Assembly (NCBI GenBank): GCA_946482635.1
Contig: CAMLSG010000265.1
Span: forward strand, 1-6,251
Reading direction: 5' to 3'
DNA from: an uncultured Duganella sp.
Lineage (GTDB): Bacteria > Pseudomonadota > Gammaproteobacteria > Burkholderiales > Burkholderiaceae
Length of the DNA stretch: 6,251 nucleotides
Notes under the pieces: model-generated
Told to the model about the DNA's origin: nothing
The model's database searches: none
The model's input: the letters and a program-made list of their open reading frames with translations, nothing else
Part shown: positions 1 through 6,251 of the stretch, in pieces
How positions within the stretch are numbered: the stretch's first letter is position 1
How the letters are laid out: every line of letters begins with the position of its first letter
Made by a program: the position numbers and the translations under genes

Positions 1-194
1 CCGCGCACGTCAACGGCGATCACGCGGCGGCCCTGGGCCGCAATCCATGGCGCGACGTCTTCGAAATCGGCCGAATTGCGCGTCAGGCCGTGGATGCAGA
101 ACACGGGCAGGCGCGCAGGACCGCTGGCGGCAGGGTAGTCGCGCGCATACAGGCGCAGGCCATCGTCGCTGGTGTAGCTGATCTCGGAATACAT
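1..194 (-). CDS. alpha/beta hydrolase, N-terminal part (gene runs off the left edge)
   Basis: Only the first 64 codons are present; the gene continues beyond position 1. The protein starts MYSEISYTSDDGLRLYARDY, a strand-turn-strand opening usual in alpha/beta hydrolases. It is followed by LPVFCIHGLTRNSADFED (about residues 29-46), where the His-Gly at residues 35-36 is the oxyanion-hole motif, and then by VIAVDVRG, the strand that usually precedes the 'D-x-R-G' loop. The nucleophile elbow, acid and His of the catalytic triad would lie outside the window, so the substrate cannot be told. Enzymes of this type are cytosolic esterases, lactonases or haloalkane/epoxide-type hydrolases. An AGGA sits very close to the ATG (about 2 bases away), a tight Shine-Dalgarno spacing, but no other start fits the family as well. 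The gene diverges from the LysR-family gene at 332 and is its most likely regulatory target (inference). Confidence 0.85.
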   Translation of the reverse strand, partial: MYSEISYTSDDGLRLYARDYPAASGPARLPVFCIHGLTRNSADFEDVAPWIAAQGRRVIAVDVR

Positions 195-331
195 AGTCCT
201 CGTGGGCAGCGTTGCAGGAGCGTGCAGTGTGCAAGAAATGCATCAAGGCGGGAACCGGAGGCCGCGCCCACTGTGTGTGCAATTTTGCACAGCAATACTA
301 CGGCGCGGGAAAATGATGCACAATAAGCCGC
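195..331. promoter_or_regulatory. divergent promoter region between the hydrolase and the LysR-type regulator
   Basis: This 137-base gap must hold the promoters of both divergent genes. TGTGCA or its complement TGCACA occurs at 228-233, 276-281, 286-291 and 317-322, and a related TGCATCA lies at 239-245. The middle pair forms a perfect inverted repeat, listed separately. No convincing -35/-10 pair stands out on either strand, and the regulator's ATG lacks a clear Shine-Dalgarno sequence. LysR-family proteins typically bind several such sites in divergent promoters to repress themselves and activate the neighbour. Applying that here is inference. Confidence 0.6.
276..291. promoter_or_regulatory. 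candidate LysR-type operator (inverted repeat TGTGCAA-TT-TTGCACA)
   Basis: The two 7-base arms (276-282 and 285-291) are perfect reverse complements around a TT spacer. The site lies 40 bases upstream of the regulator's ATG and 81 bases from the hydrolase's. Position, symmetry and AT-rich centre suit the recognition site of a LysR-family dimer, although the spacing is not the textbook T-N11-A. Binding is inferred from symmetry and location. Confidence 0.55.
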
Positions 332-1234
332 ATGAAAACACTGCCCGAATGGACTGACCTGCGCTTCTTCCTGGAGCTGGCGCGCTCCGGCACCCTGTCC
401 GGTGCTTCGCGCAGGCTTGAAGTCGAACACACCACCGTCTCGCGCCGCATCGACCGCCTGGAGCAGCAGTTGGGCGCCACGCTGTTCGACCGATCGCGTG
501 AAGGCTACGAGCTGACGGAAATGGGCCATGCCGTGCTGCCCCATGCCGAAGCCATGGAAAGCGCGGTGCTAGCCGCGCAAGGCCAGTTGTCCGGCACCGA
601 AGTGGCGATTCGCGGCGTGGTGCGCCTGGGCGTGCCGGAAGCCCTGGGCGTACGCTTCATCACGCCGCTGCTGGCGCAATTCCTGCAGGACTATCCGGAA
701 CTGTCGGTGGACTTGCTGGTGCAGCCGCGCTTCGCCAACCTGGCCAGCCGCGAGGCCGACCTTGGCGTCACGCTCGATGCGCCCAACACCGGCCGCTACA
801 TGGTGACGCGCCTGGCGTCCTTCCGCCTGTACGTGTACGGATCGCCCGATTACCTGTCGCGCCACCCGCCGATCCAGAAGCGCAGCGACCTGGCGGGCCA
901 CGACTTTGTCGACTACGTGCAGGACCGCCTGGCCAGCAATGAGCTGAATTTCCTCGATGAACTGGGCGTCAACCCGCGCCGCCGCCTGTGCTGCACCGGC
1001 ATGCTGGCGCAGGCCGAAGCGGCCGCCGCCGGCCTGGGCCTGATGATGGCGCCGCCGTACATGGCGACCGATGGCCGCCTGGTGCCGGTGCTGCAGGACG
1101 AAGTTTTCGTGGAGCGCGCCTACTGGCTGGTGGCGCCGGTCGACCTTTACAGGCTGCCGCGCGTCAGGGCCGTCTGGAATTTGCTCCGCTCGTTCGCCGA
1201 ATCGCGCGCCAACCTCTTTATCTCGAACAAGTGA
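332..1234 (+). CDS. LysR-family transcriptional regulator
   Basis: The 300-residue product is the normal length for the family. The winged helix-turn-helix occupies roughly residues 7-65. LRFFLELARSGTLSGASRRL is followed by the recognition helix region HTTVSRRIDRLEQQLGA and the wing segment LFDRSREGYELTEMG, all canonical. The linker helix runs to about residue 88, and residues 90-290 form the periplasmic-binding-protein-like effector domain. It acts in the cytoplasm as a DNA-binding tetramer responding to a small ligand that cannot be predicted here. It diverges from an alpha/beta hydrolase gene, its probable target. The start is set by the standard 'LPEWTDLRFFLELA' opening; the Shine-Dalgarno sequence is weak. 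The last 88 bases lie opposite the end of the convergent gene on the other strand, which is unusual. Family assignment is secure; ligand and targets are not. Confidence 0.95.
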   Translation: MKTLPEWTDLRFFLELARSGTLSGASRRLEVEHTTVSRRIDRLEQQLGATLFDRSREGYELTEMGHAVLPHAEAMESAVLAAQGQLSGTEVAIRGVVRLGVPEALGVRFITPLLAQFLQDYPELSVDLLVQPRFANLASREADLGVTLDAPNTGRYMVTRLASFRLYVYGSPDYLSRHPPIQKRSDLAGHDFVDYVQDRLASNELNFLDELGVNPRRRLCCTGMLAQAEAAAAGLGLMMAPPYMATDGRLVPVLQDEVFVERAYWLVAPVDLYRLPRVRAVWNLLRSFAESRANLFISNK

Positions 1235-1728
1235 GGTAGCTCGCCCGAGATCTCGGTCCGGTGCAGGTCGGGGTCGGCCCGGTCCGGCAGTGGCTCCCGC
1301 TGTGCCAGCGCCTGCAGGATGGGCGCAGGATCGTAGCTCCAGTCGACGATATGGCGGCAGGTGTCGCCCTCGCGCACCTTCATCAGCGCCAGTTCGAACT
1401 GGGACACTGAAACCACCAGCGGGTCATCATGCCCGGCCAGGAATTCGAGGAAGGCCAGCGGCTGGTACTCGCGGAACGGCGAAATATTCTCTTGCCGGAT
1501 GAAGGCCTGCAGCGCGTCTTCCAGCAAGTCGGCCTGGCGCAGCAATTCAACCGTCAGCACGCAGGTGCGCTCCAGCACATAGATCCGCCACAGCAGGACG
1601 TTGCCGCGCGCTTCCTGCAGGTCCGGCGAGCCGGCGACGCGGTGGTAATAGGCCGCATCGCCGGGCCCCGGCTGGTAAGTGGTGCGCATCAGGCCAAGCA
1701 GGATGCGCTGGTGGCTGGCCAGGTCCAT
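1147..1728 (-). CDS. MNIO-associated partner protein (candidate substrate-binding/RRE-like or HvfC-like protein)
   Basis: The product is a 193-residue soluble protein without signal peptide or membrane segment. It is mostly helical: a first helical block (about residues 45-97, with LWRIYVLERTCVLTVELLRQ and FREYQPLAFLEFL) is followed by SQFELALMKVREGD (109-122) and a C-terminal strand-like stretch HRTEISGELPHLFEI (156-170). This order (helical N-terminal region, 'FE.AL..' helix, then a short beta segment) recalls the DUF2063/HvfC and MbnC/TglI-type partners that work with DUF692 oxidases by holding the peptide substrate. I see a resemblance in layout, not a firm family match. ATG 1728 is chosen because GGAGGT lies 4 bases upstream; an in-frame ATG at 1740 has no such site. 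It begins 2 bases after the MNIO stop, so the two are probably translationally coupled. About 28 C-terminal residues, Arg-rich beyond residue 170, are antisense to the LysR gene and may be a late extension. Confidence 0.75.
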   Translation of the reverse strand: MDLASHQRILLGLMRTTYQPGPGDAAYYHRVAGSPDLQEARGNVLLWRIYVLERTCVLTVELLRQADLLEDALQAFIRQENISPFREYQPLAFLEFLAGHDDPLVVSVSQFELALMKVREGDTCRHIVDWSYDPAPILQALAQREPLPDRADPDLHRTEISGELPHLFEIKRLARDSANERSKFQTALTRGSL

Positions 1729-1730
1729 GT

Positions 1731-2609
1731 CTACCTCCATTGTCGTTGCCGCATTTGTTGCAGGGTGCTGGCGATAGCCGCATTGCCCAGGCCGGGCACG
1801 GCTTCCGGCATGAATTCGTACACGATGACTTCGGCTTCGGTCGCTACGTCGCGCAGCACCTGCTGCGCCAGGTCCATGGTGCAGGGGCGCGGCAGGCGCG
1901 AATGCACATCCAGCATCAGGCCGTTGTGCTTGACGCCGCAGGCGACGTGCAGCTCCTTCACGTGCCTGCCATCCAGTTCCGCAAGGAAGGCCTGTATATC
2001 GAGCGCATGGTTATGTTCATCGCATTCCAGGTTGTACACGTCCAGGATCAGGCCGCAGCCGCTGTCGCGCGCAACTGCGTTCAGGAAGCCGGCGTCGGTA
2101 TAGTCGGCCGGGCAGTCCGGCACCACGTGCACGATATTCTCCAGCAGGAAAGGCAGGCCATAGCGCTGCTGCAGGCACCAGGCCCGTTGCGCGACCAGTT
2201 CCGCCGCCTGCGCGGTGCGCGGCATGGCCAGCATGATGCCGAGGTGTTCGCCGTCGACGCGGGTATAGCCAAGGTGCTCGCTGTGCCAGCGCACCCGCAC
2301 CTGGTCCATCAGTTCGTCAAGCAGATGCAGGTAAGTCGGCGACCAGCCATCGTGTGAACCGATGGACAGGCTGACCCCATGCACCACGATGGTCTTTTCG
2401 CGGTCGATATTTTTCAGTTCGGCCAGGATGCCCTTGTCCAGCGAAATCCGGTCGCCATCGGCCACCGACATGGTTTCCGGCGTTACCTCGATGATGTCGA
2501 CGTGCGGCAGCATCATTTCGAGCAGCGCCGGGTCGCGCCCCTCGTAGCTGACGCCCACGCCCAGGGCAGGGCGCGGGCCGGGGGCAAGCAGTTCAGCCGC
2601 GGAATTCAT
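1731..2609 (-). CDS. DUF692-family multinuclear non-heme iron oxidase (MNIO), candidate RiPP-modifying enzyme
   Basis: The 292-residue protein has the TIM-barrel motifs of the DUF692/MNIO family in order: GVGVSYEG (17-24), HGVSLSIGS (77-85), SEHLGY (110-115), LLENI (155-159), LILDVYNL (187-194), HNHALD (199-204), KELHVA (218-223), LDVHSR (233-238) and VYEFMPE (263-269). Candidate iron ligands are His77, His112, Glu157, Asn193, His221, Asp234, His236 and Glu265, by correspondence with the family pattern. Characterised members (MbnB, TglH, ChrH, ApyH, bufferin maturases) use two or three irons and O2 to rebuild Cys or Asp residues in ribosomal peptides, usually with a partner protein. Compared with common members, 'SDHLCW' is SEHLGY and 'HLAGH' is HVACG, so this is a divergent branch. 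It overlaps the upstream small-protein gene by 17 bases and is followed after 2 bases by the partner gene. ATG 2609 is chosen because the family motif begins about 17 residues later; an ATG at 2675 would extend deep into the small-protein gene. Confidence 0.9.
   Translation of the reverse strand: MNSAAELLAPGPRPALGVGVSYEGRDPALLEMMLPHVDIIEVTPETMSVADGDRISLDKGILAELKNIDREKTIVVHGVSLSIGSHDGWSPTYLHLLDELMDQVRVRWHSEHLGYTRVDGEHLGIMLAMPRTAQAAELVAQRAWCLQQRYGLPFLLENIVHVVPDCPADYTDAGFLNAVARDSGCGLILDVYNLECDEHNHALDIQAFLAELDGRHVKELHVACGVKHNGLMLDVHSRLPRPCTMDLAQQVLRDVATEAEVIVYEFMPEAVPGLGNAAIASTLQQMRQRQWR
1733..1738 (-). promoter_or_regulatory. Shine-Dalgarno sequence GGAGGT that decides the partner-gene start
   Basis: On the minus strand GGAGGT ends 4 bases before the ATG at 1728 and spans the last two codons of the MNIO gene, with its T being the first base of the MNIO stop codon TAG. 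This favours ATG 1728 over the in-frame ATG at 1740, which overlaps the Shine-Dalgarno sequence itself. It also implies translational coupling of oxidase and partner. Confidence 0.75.
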
Positions 2610-2847
2610 GTTCCAGCACCGCACCTTCGATGTGTGGCACCTCGCGCAGCACGCGGCCGATCGATGGGTCGCCACGCAGGAAGCTCAGGTCAAAGCCCGT
2701 CAGGCCGCAATTGCAGCCGCCCTTGGGCACCATCTGGGCGACGGCGATATCGAGTGCCTTATGCAATTCTTCCAGGGTGACCTTGCCCTCGCTGACGACG
2801 ATCTTGATATGGTTTTTCTTGAAATTGGTTTGGCGCAGTTCTTCCAT
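2593..2847 (-). CDS. small GGCNCG-motif protein, candidate RiPP precursor of the MNIO cassette
   Basis: The 84-residue product has two parts. Residues 1-40 are charged and probably helical (MEELRQTNFKKNHIK, then TLEELHKALDIAVAQMVP), as expected of a leader peptide bound by a partner protein. Residues 41-61 form the striking PKGGCNCGLTGFDLSFLRGD segment, with the only two cysteines (45 and 47) in a CxC pair flanked by glycines. A further 23 residues follow, ending PHIEGAVLEHEFRG. There is no signal peptide. MNIO enzymes modify Cys or Asp of ribosomal peptides, so Cys45/Cys47 and perhaps Asp53 are candidate targets (inference). Unlike most precursors the Cys motif is central, so part of the C-terminus may be a follower or the product may be a small modified protein. 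ATG 2847 has GGAG 6 bases upstream; an in-frame ATG at 2928 lacks one. I have an unverified memory of an uncharacterised small family named from Azospirillum/Myxococcus loci (AZL_007920/MXAN_0976) seen beside DUF692 genes; this could be a member. Confidence 0.75.
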   Translation of the reverse strand: MEELRQTNFKKNHIKIVVSEGKVTLEELHKALDIAVAQMVPKGGCNCGLTGFDLSFLRGDPSIGRVLREVPHIEGAVLEHEFRG

Positions 2848-2966
2848 GACGATCTCCAGGCGGTCCGGTATTGACGAGGGGCGGGCCCTTCGGACCAGGC
2901 TGTGGACCGCGCCCCGTTTGATTTCCATGGAAGTCACTTTAGGCGGTAAGGAAGCGCGGCGAATTG
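2848..2966 (-). promoter_or_regulatory. leader region of the small peptide/MNIO operon, with possible alternative hairpins
   Basis: The 119 bases before the small-protein gene should hold its promoter and 5' leader. Near the start codon a Shine-Dalgarno GGAG lies at 2854-2857. Just upstream of it CGGACCGC (2867-2860) can pair either with GCGGTCC (2910-2904; 7 bases) or with GGTCCG (2896-2891; 6 bases), and GGGGCG (2915-2910) can pair with CGCCCC (2883-2878). These pairings exclude one another in part. The region is very GC-rich, so some complementarity is expected by chance. No good -35/-10 pair was found. Confidence 0.35.
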
Positions 2967-2998
2967 GTACTGGCACCCAAATTCCGGGTAGCCAGCAC
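2967..2998. repeat. imperfect inverted repeat (about 12-base arms) between the LuxR-type gene and the peptide operon
   Basis: The arms are GTACTGGCACCC (2967-2978) and GGGTAGCCAGCAC (2986-2998), separated by AAATTCC. They pair over 12 positions with one bulged base and one G-T wobble. The repeat begins directly after the TAG stop of the LuxR-type gene. On the minus strand no run of T follows, so it is not a standard Rho-independent terminator. It could be an operator for the dimeric LuxR-type regulator, a transcript-processing or 3'-protecting hairpin, or a weak terminator. The structure is seen directly; the role is open. Confidence 0.6.
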
Positions 2999-5644
2999 CT
3001 AGTTTTTATGCAGTGAATCGGGCGGACGGCGCAGCAAATCGAGGCGCGTGGTGGCGCCCAGCTTGCCGAGCAGGGTTGAAACGTGGTGTTCGACCGTGCG
3101 CTCGGAACGGCACAGGCGTTGCGCGATCTCGAGGTTGCTGAGGCCATCGAGCAGCAATTCCAGCACCTGGGCTTCGCGGCGGGTCAGGCCGCTCGGGTGT
3201 TCGCGTGCAGCCGCGTAAGGCCCGCGCCGCGGTTTGGGCAGCTTGGCCTGGGCGCCGCAGGCACGGGCGCGCTGCCGCGCCAGCGCAGCGGCCGGTGCGG
3301 CGCCGATCTGCTCCAGCAGTGCGACGGCCTTGGGCATGGCTTGCGCCGCCACGTCGCCGGACAGGTCGAGCAGGGCCAGGGCGGCTTCAAACGGCAGGCC
3401 GAGGGCCAGCCAGGCGTCGCACGCGGCCTGGCCATTGCCGGCGGCTTCCGCAGCGCGCGGCGGCGGGACGGATGCGCGTTCCTCAGCCGCCAGGGTAGCC
3501 ATCGCCGCCCGCCGGCGCCAGGTACCGACTTCCGCCAGGTCCCACGCATTCACGCCGGACAGGTCGAACTGCCCGATCTCGTCGAGCCAGCGGCGGCAGC
3601 TTTCCAAGTCCTGGATTTGCCACGCCGCTTCCGCGAGGGCCAGCAGCACTGGCAGCAAGCGCTGCGACTCGCCCGTGGCGCGTGCCCATTGCAGCGCTTC
3701 CTGCAGGCAGCGCGCGGCGTCTTCCTCGCCCTGGCGCGACAGGGTTCGTCCCAGCACGGTCAATGCCGGCAGCCGCATGACCAGGCTCAGGTCGGGCAGG
3801 GCGAGCACCTGGCGCGCCAGCGCCGCAGCCTGTGCGAACTCGCCCTTGTCGAGGTGGAGCTGCGCCTGCCAGCCCGTGAGGTAATGCACCCAGGCGTCCA
3901 GCTCGTGCTCGCGGTGGTAGGCGAGGCCTTCCGCCAGCAGGCGTTCGGCCAGCGCAAACCGCTTGAATACAACCGCGTATTCAACCCAGTTGCTGTAGAT
4001 GCGTGCCGCGTGTTCGTGCAGATGCTGGTCCAGGGCGCATTGCAATCCGTCCGCCAGGTCTTGCTGGCCGCTGTCGTCACCGAGGAACAGTTTGGCGCTG
4101 CCGATATTGGTCAGCGCATGGACGCGGGTGTCGTGGTCGTCCAGTGCTGTTGCGAGTTCCAGGGCCAGCCGGCCCCATTCGATGGCGGATGCAGGGTGGT
4201 CCTGCAATAGCTGGTGCTGGGAACGCATGCTGTACGCCATGGCCAGCTCTTTGCTGTTCGGCAGCTGTTCAAGCGTGCGGATCGCTTCCAGTCCATAGCG
4301 TTCGGCTTCTTTCGCCTCGCCGCGATACCAGTGGGTGCGCGCCAGCCAGCGCAGGTTGAGGCCCACCTTGTCGGGGCGATCCACGCTCTGCCACAGTGCG
4401 ATGGCTTTCAACCGCGCTTCGATCAAGCGTTCATCGATGCGCAGCAGGCCAGCTTCATAGGCCCAGTCCTCATAAAGCTGGGCAGCTTCACCGGTCCAGC
4501 CCACCGCATCCACGAATTGCAGGGCGCTTGCCAGGTGCGACGCCGCCTGGCGGTGGGCTCCCAGCCGGGCTGCCTGGCGCGCCGCTCTTGGCGCCAGTTG
4601 CAGCACCATGTGGGCATCCTGCGCACCGGTTGCGTGATGGACCAGCCGCGCCAGTTCGATGCGCGCATGGCTGGGCGCCTGCTCGGTCAACACCCTGGAC
4701 AGGCGCTTGTGCAGGGCACGTGTGGCGCCGGGGCGCAGCCCGCTCAGCACGGCCTGGCGCGCCAGCTCATGGCGGAACGACAGCAGGCCGGGGCTGGCCC
4801 GTTGCAGCAGTCCGCTGTCGACACTGGCGTCGATGGCGTCATGCCCGTCGTCGCCGAGCAAGGCTTCCAGCAGCCACTCCTCCAGCGCCACCGGGCTGAC
4901 GCTGACCAGTTCCAGCACGGTGCGCACTGGCGGATCCAGCCGCGAGGTACGCGCCCAGACGGCATCGCGCACCGAGGCCGGCAAATGGCCGGGATCATGG
5001 CTGCAGTCGGTCAGCAGTTCGGAAAGGAAGAATGGATTGCCGCCGGTGACGCGGTATAACTCCGAGGGATCGCAGTCCGCGTCGCGCGCCAGCGTGGCCA
5101 CAGCACTGGGCGACAAAGGCGGCAGGTCGAGGCGCTGGGTACTGGCAGCCGGCAAATCGCCGGCCCAGCGCCAGAAGGCATGGTCGGGCGGCAGCTCGTC
5201 ATTGCGGGCGCTGGCCAGCAGCATGATGTGCTGGTCGGCGATGCGGCGGGCCAGGTACTTGAGCAGGTCAAGCGTGGCCTGGTCGGCCCAGTGCAAGTCC
5301 TCGCACATCACCAGCACCGGCCGCGGTTGCGCGGCCAGGTGGCCCAGCAGCATGGGCATCAGGATATCTGGACTGGCCGCGTTGTCGATGGTGGATACAA
5401 CGTCCTGGCCCAACGCAGGCGCGAAGTCGCGCAGGGGGCCAAGTACGCGCGGCGTGGACAGGTCTTCGCAGGCGCCTTGGAGGACAAAGAACTCGCCTTT
5501 CAGCGGCGCGGCAAAGGCTTGCAGCAAGGATGACTTGCCGATGCCGGCTTCGCCCAGCACCAGCGCCATCCCGCCCGCACCTGAGCTAACGCGGCTGGCA
5601 AGCCGCTGCAAATCCTGCAATTGCCTTTCGCGCTCGAGCAGCAT
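2999..5644 (-). CDS. large ATP-binding LuxR-family regulator (LAL, MalT-like)
   Basis: This 881-residue cytoplasmic regulator has the full LAL layout. An N-terminal AAA/NTPase module carries Walker A GEAGIGKSS (31-39) and Walker B VLVMCEDLHWAD (110-121). A winged-helix-like stretch follows, with TGGNPFFLSELL near residues 200-211. A long helical, TPR-like middle of about 450 residues comes next. The C-terminal LuxR helix-turn-helix (about 819-867) includes LTRREAQVLELLLDGLSN and SERTVEHHVSTLLGKLGA. Length matches the family's usual 800-950 residues and no key motif is missing. Such proteins use ATP binding and an inducer bound by the helical region to oligomerise and activate transcription. 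The start is backed by GAGGAG (5651-5656) 6 bases before the ATG and by the typical opening LLERERQLQDLQRL. The TonB-dependent receptor gene ends 67 bases upstream on the same strand, and no clear promoter is visible in that gap. Downstream lie the peptide and MNIO genes, its best candidate targets (inference). Confidence 0.93.
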   Translation of the reverse strand: MLLERERQLQDLQRLASRVSSGAGGMALVLGEAGIGKSSLLQAFAAPLKGEFFVLQGACEDLSTPRVLGPLRDFAPALGQDVVSTIDNAASPDILMPMLLGHLAAQPRPVLVMCEDLHWADQATLDLLKYLARRIADQHIMLLASARNDELPPDHAFWRWAGDLPAASTQRLDLPPLSPSAVATLARDADCDPSELYRVTGGNPFFLSELLTDCSHDPGHLPASVRDAVWARTSRLDPPVRTVLELVSVSPVALEEWLLEALLGDDGHDAIDASVDSGLLQRASPGLLSFRHELARQAVLSGLRPGATRALHKRLSRVLTEQAPSHARIELARLVHHATGAQDAHMVLQLAPRAARQAARLGAHRQAASHLASALQFVDAVGWTGEAAQLYEDWAYEAGLLRIDERLIEARLKAIALWQSVDRPDKVGLNLRWLARTHWYRGEAKEAERYGLEAIRTLEQLPNSKELAMAYSMRSQHQLLQDHPASAIEWGRLALELATALDDHDTRVHALTNIGSAKLFLGDDSGQQDLADGLQCALDQHLHEHAARIYSNWVEYAVVFKRFALAERLLAEGLAYHREHELDAWVHYLTGWQAQLHLDKGEFAQAAALARQVLALPDLSLVMRLPALTVLGRTLSRQGEEDAARCLQEALQWARATGESQRLLPVLLALAEAAWQIQDLESCRRWLDEIGQFDLSGVNAWDLAEVGTWRRRAAMATLAAEERASVPPPRAAEAAGNGQAACDAWLALGLPFEAALALLDLSGDVAAQAMPKAVALLEQIGAAPAAALARQRARACGAQAKLPKPRRGPYAAAREHPSGLTRREAQVLELLLDGLSNLEIAQRLCRSERTVEHHVSTLLGKLGATTRLDLLRRPPDSLHKN

Positions 5645-5711
5645 CTGGCTCTCCTCACTGCCATGATATTCCTGTCAGCGCAAAAGGATTCTCACCAATC
5701 GTAACGTGCGG

Positions 5712-6251
5712 TCAGAACTTGTACGAAGCGGTCAGCTTGTAGGTCCGTGGATCGCCGTAGTAGGTGGTAACGGTGTTGAAGAAACCACCGAAGGCGTAGC
5801 CGGCCACCTTGTAGCGTTTATCGGTGAGGTTGCGGCCATGCAGGCCGACTTGCAGGCGGCGGTCGGCACTCGTCCATACCAGGCCGGCATCCCACAGCGT
5901 GAAGCCGCCCTGGGCCAGCATCAGGTTTTGCGGCACCAGCGCATCCATCGAGGCGATGCCGGTCAGGCGCACGATTTCAGCCTGGTAGACCTTGTCCTTG
6001 TAGGACAGGCTGTTGTTGAAGCTCATGCTGCCGCCGCGGCCGAACAGGCTGACCGGCCATTCATACGTCGCGCCCAGGTTGGCCGACTTCTTCGGCGTGT
6101 TCTGGAATTCCGCACTTTTCGCCACATTGACCAGCGTCGCGCCGCTGGCCACCATCCATTCCTTGTACTCGGCATCGATGTAGCTCAGCATGCCGTTCAG
6201 CGACAGGCCATCGGTCACGCGGGCAATCGCTTCCAGCTCCAGGCCCTTGAT
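5712..6251 (-). CDS. TonB-dependent outer-membrane receptor, C-terminal part (gene runs off the right edge)
   Basis: The last 179 codons are present, and the frame is open to the window edge. The sequence alternates amphipathic beta-strands of an outer-membrane barrel: LEAIARVTDGLSLNGMLSYI, then AEYKEW, LGATYEWPVSL, MSFNNSLSYKD, LWDAGLVWTSADRRLQVGLH. It contains the family's GRNLTDKRYKVAGY motif near the end and finishes TYKLTASYKF, with the terminal aromatic residue used as the outer-membrane assembly signal. The plug domain and TonB box are outside the window, so the ligand (siderophore, metal complex, vitamin or glycan) cannot be named. The GTG at 6216-6218 is internal, not a start. The gene is co-directional with the LuxR-type gene, 67 bases away. 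Methanobactin operons also carry a TonB-dependent receptor near their MNIO gene, so a link to the peptide cassette is possible but unproven. Confidence 0.92.
   Translation of the reverse strand: MKGLELEAIARVTDGLSLNGMLSYIDAEYKEWMVASGATLVNVAKSAEFQNTPKKSANLGATYEWPVSLFGRGGSMSFNNSLSYKDKVYQAEIVRLTGIASMDALVPQNLMLAQGGFTLWDAGLVWTSADRRLQVGLHGRNLTDKRYKVAGYAFGGFFNTVTTYYGDPRTYKLTASYKF

Follow-up and report, generated by a model that had tools for sequence, protein, structure and literature searches.

The peptide oxidations catalysed by enzymes of the MNIO family (DUF692) are among the most unusual known. The largest characterised groups of these multinuclear iron enzymes have a catalytic Asp in common, and their substrates are Cys-containing peptides that are exported. 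The locus described here raises the question of whether MNIOs of another kind act on proteins that remain intracellular, and do so by a different chemistry. It lies in a stretch of 6,251 nucleotides from an uncultured Duganella sp. (assembly GCA_946482635.1, contig CAMLSG010000265.1), referred to below as the window, and it is a minimal three-gene system: a small protein with two near-invariant Cys residues as candidate substrate, an MNIO whose active site is without the known helper residues, and a helical partner protein. The three genes share the minus strand in the order small protein, MNIO, partner. A preliminary description of this DNA had them tightly packed, and the window coordinates bear this out, with an overlap of 17 bases between the small-protein and MNIO genes and a gap of 2 bases between the MNIO and partner genes. 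To judge from sequence, the small protein is very probably altered chemically by the MNIO. The small protein had been thought unfamiliar to the field; in fact it very probably belongs to adjamnio-1, a family of putative MNIO precursors that received its name in 2025 (PMC12452194).

The MNIO and its active site

The enzyme matches PF05114 with an E-value of 7.6e-45 (153.7 bits, cut-off 25), and 1034 homologues were found at E ≤ 1e-3. The NCBIfam models for bufferin, HvfB, ApyH, ChrH and MbnB enzymes all match it far under their cut-offs. The best of these are the bufferin and HvfB maturases, at 133.2 and 115.7 bits against cut-offs of 310 and 360, while the MbnB model TIGR04159 gives 35.1 bits and does not reach its cut-off of 325. 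The iron ligands of TglH are His71, His107, Glu151, Asp184, Asn187, His216, Asp229, His231 and Glu258 (PMC10880893). In a profile alignment, eight of these nine correspond to identical residues of the window MNIO (H77, H112, E157, D190, N193, H221, D234 and H236); the ninth, Glu258, was equated with E265 by eye, the alignment there being shifted by one or two residues. All nine predicted ligands, including E265, are invariant in the 53/53 MNIOs of alignment A2, in which the window MNIO is joined by 52 of 120 listed homologues from the 1034 found. It should be added that the homologue search used throughout gathers proteins sharing short exact words, so that conserved motifs are favoured. On this alignment, the window MNIO is predicted to keep the multinuclear iron ligands.

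The proposed base of MbnB is Asp240, two residues past the ligand Glu238 (PMC8888699). Mutation of the corresponding proposed base in FonB, a thiooxazole enzyme, left the peptide unmodified (FonB-D249A; PMC13097082). TglH is without that Asp, and Asn73 is reported to be required instead (PMC10880893). In the window MNIO the place of the Asp is taken by Met267 (E265-F-M267), so that there is no E-x-D base, and Val79 aligns with Asn73 of TglH. Met267 is invariant in A2, as is Glu269. The missing Asp and Asn argue against plain thiooxazole chemistry, and their absence strengthens the earlier suggestion that the product chemistry would be new, which we continue to infer from sequence.

The residues following the ligand Glu were also read by eye in 34 MNIO loci, which are not a random sample: four come from Massilia sp. 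CF038, and 30 are the best-placed matches from a sample of one Acidobacteriota class. Every MNIO beside a recognised Cys-rich precursor has E-[RW]-D (20/20, with 18 of the precursors flagged by script and those of L013 and L014 by eye). At the loci of leaderless type, which have C-x(1,2)-C small proteins, the Asp at +2 is absent in 10/10 MNIOs, the sister small proteins having been called leaderless by eye. The total for E-x-D is 21 of 34 loci, the extra one being L043, where no precursor was recognised. In three loci (L025, L026 and L027) the Asp stands three residues past the ligand Glu (+3; ELLD, EMLD and EILD, respectively); each of these MNIOs precedes an unidentified open reading frame, and no precursor was recognised.

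The small protein, its partner and their occurrence

The small protein has 207 homologues at E ≤ 1e-3, its closest relatives being found in Duganella, Pseudoduganella and Massilia. Searches for known domains gave weak matches only, with best E-values of 0.071 in Pfam, 0.24 in NCBIfam and 0.48 in the PDB, and no match in PHROG. The two Cys residues of the window protein are Cys45 and Cys47. Among 120 listed homologues of the 207 found, the motif CNCGLTGFD is kept in 120/120 and exactly two Cys residues are present in 119/120. Alignment A1, which contains the window protein and 96 of these 120 (97 rows), has 22 invariant columns over residues 13-61, and Asp53, part of a G-[FIL]-D motif, is invariant in 97/97 rows. 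No signal-peptide-like stretch is seen in the family, as judged by hydropathy windows only: the best 12-residue hydropathy is 1.02 for the small protein, with a family maximum of 1.33, compared with 2.28-2.43 for three precursors of Massilia sp. CF038. No protease or exporter accompanying the cassette was recognised in the neighbour gene lists, which were read by eye and not searched systematically.

For the partner, 218 homologues were found at E ≤ 1e-3 (alignment A3: the window partner with 57 of 120 listed homologues). For all three proteins the number of homologues far exceeds chance. Searches of Pfam (E ≤ 1, including DUF2063), NCBIfam and PHROG gave no match, and comparison with the PDB by sequence reached chance level only (E 9.8). 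When the structural model of the partner was compared using VIA-align, the first six of 24 rows were MNIO partner chains, namely TglI (twice), NGO1945 and MbnC (three times). NGO1945 is termed an MNIO partner (PMC12452194, PMC13097082). The model thus places the partner in PME-type 2, as a protein predicted to be structurally related to NGO1945 and without a DUF2063 signature. Purifying selection is indicated for all three cassette genes by dN/dS values against six relatives (L001-L006), which are 0.095-0.286 for the small protein, 0.048-0.143 for the MNIO and 0.092-0.305 for the partner.

The preliminary description had set co-occurrence of the small protein and MNIO as a check beforehand. 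In 490 genomes (a genus of 74, a genus of 17, and 399 genomes of one Acidobacteriota class), the small protein and its MNIO subtype are found in the same 11 genomes, 11/11 both ways, and are always adjacent. The subtype is defined by a score of at least 528 bits, or by split pieces of 317 + 222 bits in one genome (G409), a cut that was set after the scores had been seen. In the 74-genome genus the small protein is found in 6 genomes and the MNIO subtype in the same 6 (at least 528 bits, the next best being 130), and in the 17-genome genus both are found in the same 3. In the Acidobacteriota sample the small protein is found in 2 genomes, with the MNIO subtype in the same 2 at 531 bits; the next MNIOs there, at 395 and 351 bits, have related small proteins instead (GCTTCGLGGID and GCRTCGLMGID). 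A sample of 399 Burkholderiales genomes, searched for the small protein alone, contained it in 1/399, this being the query's own genome. The small-protein family is rare. Scoring in the large samples was confined to the 14 or 6 best first-look candidates of each genome, and single misses are therefore possible. Together with the iron ligands and the TglI-like partner model, the co-occurrence supports the original assignment of the three genes as an MNIO-type modification cassette.

At one locus of the 17-genome genus, that of Massilia sp. H-1 (L011, G409), the small-protein gene is interrupted by in-frame stops, and the MNIO is stop-bearing and split. This reflects either sequencing error or decay; another MNIO in that genome is also interrupted.

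Profile comparison links adjamnio-1 to a pair of CxxCGL proteins (probability 95.1), and links this pair to five CxxC-SG[LF][DN] proteins (probability 88.6), while comparison of adjamnio-1 with the latter directly gives a probability of 5, which is no link. In 12 representatives the only invariant residues are the two Cys and one Gly (Gly51), with Asp53 present in 11/12 and replaced by Asn in L033. Since the direct profile link is missing and the invariant residues are few, the wider group is tentative, and it is likewise tentatively that we describe the sister MNIOs as following related small proteins. At one sister locus (L053, G758), the cassette, made up of a CGGCYSGLD protein, MNIO and partner, adjoins genes that by eye resemble a cobalt/nickel CbiMQO-type transporter.

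Proposed working of the cassette and its alternatives

From these results we infer binding, the substrate status of the small protein, the modified residue, the product and its use, as follows. The three genes would act as one unit that modifies a small cytosolic protein post-translationally. The TglI-like partner would bind the MNIO as well as the small protein, and bring the CNC loop of the latter to the iron cluster, where Cys45 and/or Cys47 would coordinate iron and then be oxidised with O2. The product is unlikely to be the customary 5-thiooxazole or oxazolone-thioamide and would be another Cys-derived group, because the MNIO is without the catalytic Asp of the methanobactin and thiooxazole enzymes. 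The modified small protein would probably be retained as a metal- or redox-active protein, and not cleaved and exported as a peptide. As precedents, we note that in MbnABC the substrate Cys binds an iron (PMC8888699), and that TglHI requires the thiol of its substrate (PMC10880893). Taken as a whole, partner-assisted oxidation of a Cys of the small protein by the MNIO to a non-thiooxazole group, with retention of the product, is the account that we favour, with moderate confidence.

Several observations weigh against this account. Foldseek alone finds nothing significant for the partner (best E 1.1), and the six MNIO partner rows from VIA-align have large root mean square deviations, of 5.5-7.2 Å. 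The AlphaFold2 model of the small protein (strand-helix-strand, one-turn helix, strand) is poor, with a pLDDT of 56, and its status as a folded protein is therefore not established. In the MNIO, the invariant Glu269 lies two residues past Met267 and could serve as base, and lining up the region of E265 with bufferin-type enzymes takes a gap of two residues. Nor does the absent Asp define a product, since TglH, also without it, still acts on Cys. Finally, the conservation of Asp53 almost equals that of the Cys pair, and MNIO reactions on Asp and Asn have been reported (PMC12257519).

The conservation of Asp53 and the reported reactions on Asp and Asn favour a different scheme, in which the MNIO modifies a residue other than Cys, Asp53 being the likeliest, and the Cys pair binds a metal or forms a disulphide. 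We consider it unlikely: Asp53 is indeed found in all rows of A1 and in all but one of the sister-family rows, but both Cys residues are kept in 12/12 representatives. It is also conceivable, though in our view very unlikely, that the small protein is an accessory, such as a metal chaperone or a third enzyme subunit, and that the true substrate is encoded elsewhere. We know of no accessory of such a kind for characterised MNIOs. The 22 invariant columns are closer to what would be expected of a working protein than of a precursor peptide, but the small protein occupies the precursor place in the order precursor-MNIO-partner, which is that of bufferin clusters and the most frequent order (PMC12452194). 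Ordinary captophorin chemistry would turn the CNC cysteines into 5-thiooxazole (or oxazolone-thioamide) and so yield a cytosolic copper buffer. In its favour, bufferin/HvfB maturases are the best-scoring NCBIfam models, and C47-G48 recalls the preference for Cys-Gly described for FonB (PMC13097082). We regard it as improbable, however, given that these scores are far under the curated cut-offs, that the E-x-D base needed by FonB (PMC13097082) is absent, and that the small protein has two Cys residues only and no signal-peptide-like stretch, beside a partner with no DUF2063 match.

A broader proposal can also be made, which we offer as a possibility and hold only tentatively. MNIOs with leaderless substrates may form a separate catalytic branch, using neither the Asp of MbnB and FonB nor the Asn of TglH, in which the C-x(1,2)-C...G-[FIL]-D loop would be converted to an undescribed, cofactor-like, protein-bound group on a small, retained cytosolic protein and not to a secreted metallophore. 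Within this branch, adjamnio-1 would stand out by its high conservation.

The surrounding region and comparison with known systems

The features of the window are listed in Table 1.

Table 1. Positions of the cassette and its neighbours in the window
Feature	Position	Strand	Basis or remark
LysR gene	332..1234	+	Pfam
Helical MNIO partner, 193 aa, predicted PME-type 2 (TglI/NGO1945-like)	1147..1728	-	Model comparison
MNIO (DUF692, PF05114), multinuclear iron enzyme, 292 aa	1731..2609	-	Pfam and ligand alignment
Small protein, 84 aa, leaderless, putative MNIO substrate	2593..2847	-	Carries motif GGCNCGLTGFDLSFLRGDP
LuxR-type regulator, 881 aa, AAA ATPase domain and C-terminal GerE helix-turn-helix	2999..5644	-	Pfam AAA_16, GerE
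TonB-dependent receptor, C-terminal part	5712..6251	-	Pfam, NCBIfam
Block missing as one unit in two relatives (empty sites)	1235..5710	.	Alignment of L079 and L080

The small-protein gene is preceded by GGAG, resembling a ribosome-binding site. The length given for the partner assumes the ATG after GGAGG, there being an alternative upstream ATG at 1740. The LysR gene is convergent with the partner gene, and the two overlap at their 3' ends by 88 bases (1147-1234); the low-confidence C-terminal tail of the partner is read antisense to LysR. At the left end, positions 1-194 of the minus strand were recognised by eye, from the counterpart in L079, as the beginning of an alpha/beta hydrolase-like gene.

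The regulator is upstream of the small-protein gene on the same strand, 151 bases apart, and an orthologue is present in 6/6 Duganella-clade loci (L001-L006). LysR orthologues at E ≤ 1e-120 are found in 8/74 genomes of the 74-genome genus, namely in those 6 that carry the cassette and in 2 that lack it. In the latter (L079 and L080) the TonB-receptor gene comes directly after LysR, and regulator and cassette are missing together; the regulator has no match in the empty-site regions (13.5 and 14.0 kb). L079 aligns with window positions 1-1234 and 5711-6251, with 44 bases in between. For L080 the aligned parts are 1-1205 and 5709-6251, separated by 29 bases, the missing part being 1206-5708. A terminator-like inverted repeat was seen by eye at the junction in L079. 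Gain and loss of the block are indistinguishable. The joint presence or absence of regulator and cassette as one block suggests that the regulator may serve the cassette in the Duganella clade. At five other cassette loci (L007-L010 and L058) no regulator match was found within the flanks examined.

Among the characterised systems, MbnB-MbnC differs in that the window MNIO scores far under the MbnB cut-off and has no general base Asp, and the small protein shows no relation to MbnA. TglH, which acts with TglI, relies on Asn73 and on a C-terminal Cys added by TglB, whereas the window MNIO has Val79; a Pfam scan of six window proteins, the extent of the search, found no TglB-like protein. The captophorins (bufferin, oxazolin and fontiphorin) resemble the cassette in enzyme superfamily, in gene order and in providing the nearest NCBIfam models, but their precursors bear Sec signal peptides or are Cys-rich, their partners belong to DUF2063 (PME-type 1), and their MNIOs carry an E-x-D base. 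The window cassette was found to have none of these features.

The closest system is adjamnio-1, described by Antoine et al. (2025) as a putative precursor family without signal peptide, beside MNIO sequence similarity network (SSN) cluster 1 and with PME-type 2 partners; its representative is WP_073215760 from Massilia sp. CF038 (PMC12452194). This strain has four MNIO loci, of which the fourth (L007) is a homologue of the window cassette, with identities of 71% for the small protein, 70% for the MNIO and 63% for the partner. In the other three the precursor starts resemble signal peptides, as judged by eye and by hydropathy, and DUF2063 occurs in the partner or in a fusion. The identity of the small protein with adjamnio-1 is put as very probable because L007 is the only fitting CF038 locus, by elimination and not by accession match. 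The cassette is then very probably a further member of a named, chemically uncharacterised family. In the collection of papers searched, the word 'adjamnio' was found only in PMC12452194 and 'CNCGLTGF' in no paper, while GGCNCG appeared in four papers with unrelated titles. The main texts of PMC13097082 and PMC12257519 contain neither 'Massilia' nor 'Acidobacteri', and no experimental study of adjamnio-1 was found among the MNIO papers listed since 2025 (8 of 10 and 16 of 19, by title and abstract opening).

The window cassette and adjamnio-1, as described in the portions of PMC12452194 consulted, agree in the absence of a signal peptide, the position directly before the MNIO, the PME-type 2 partner and the Cys motif. 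Those portions give no chemistry or function, and do not mention the missing Asp, sister proteins or a regulator-linked block. Relative to them, the present analysis adds the absence of the catalytic Asp and of the Asn of TglH, a tentative group of sister small proteins, and the block that carries the cassette together with the LuxR-type regulator.

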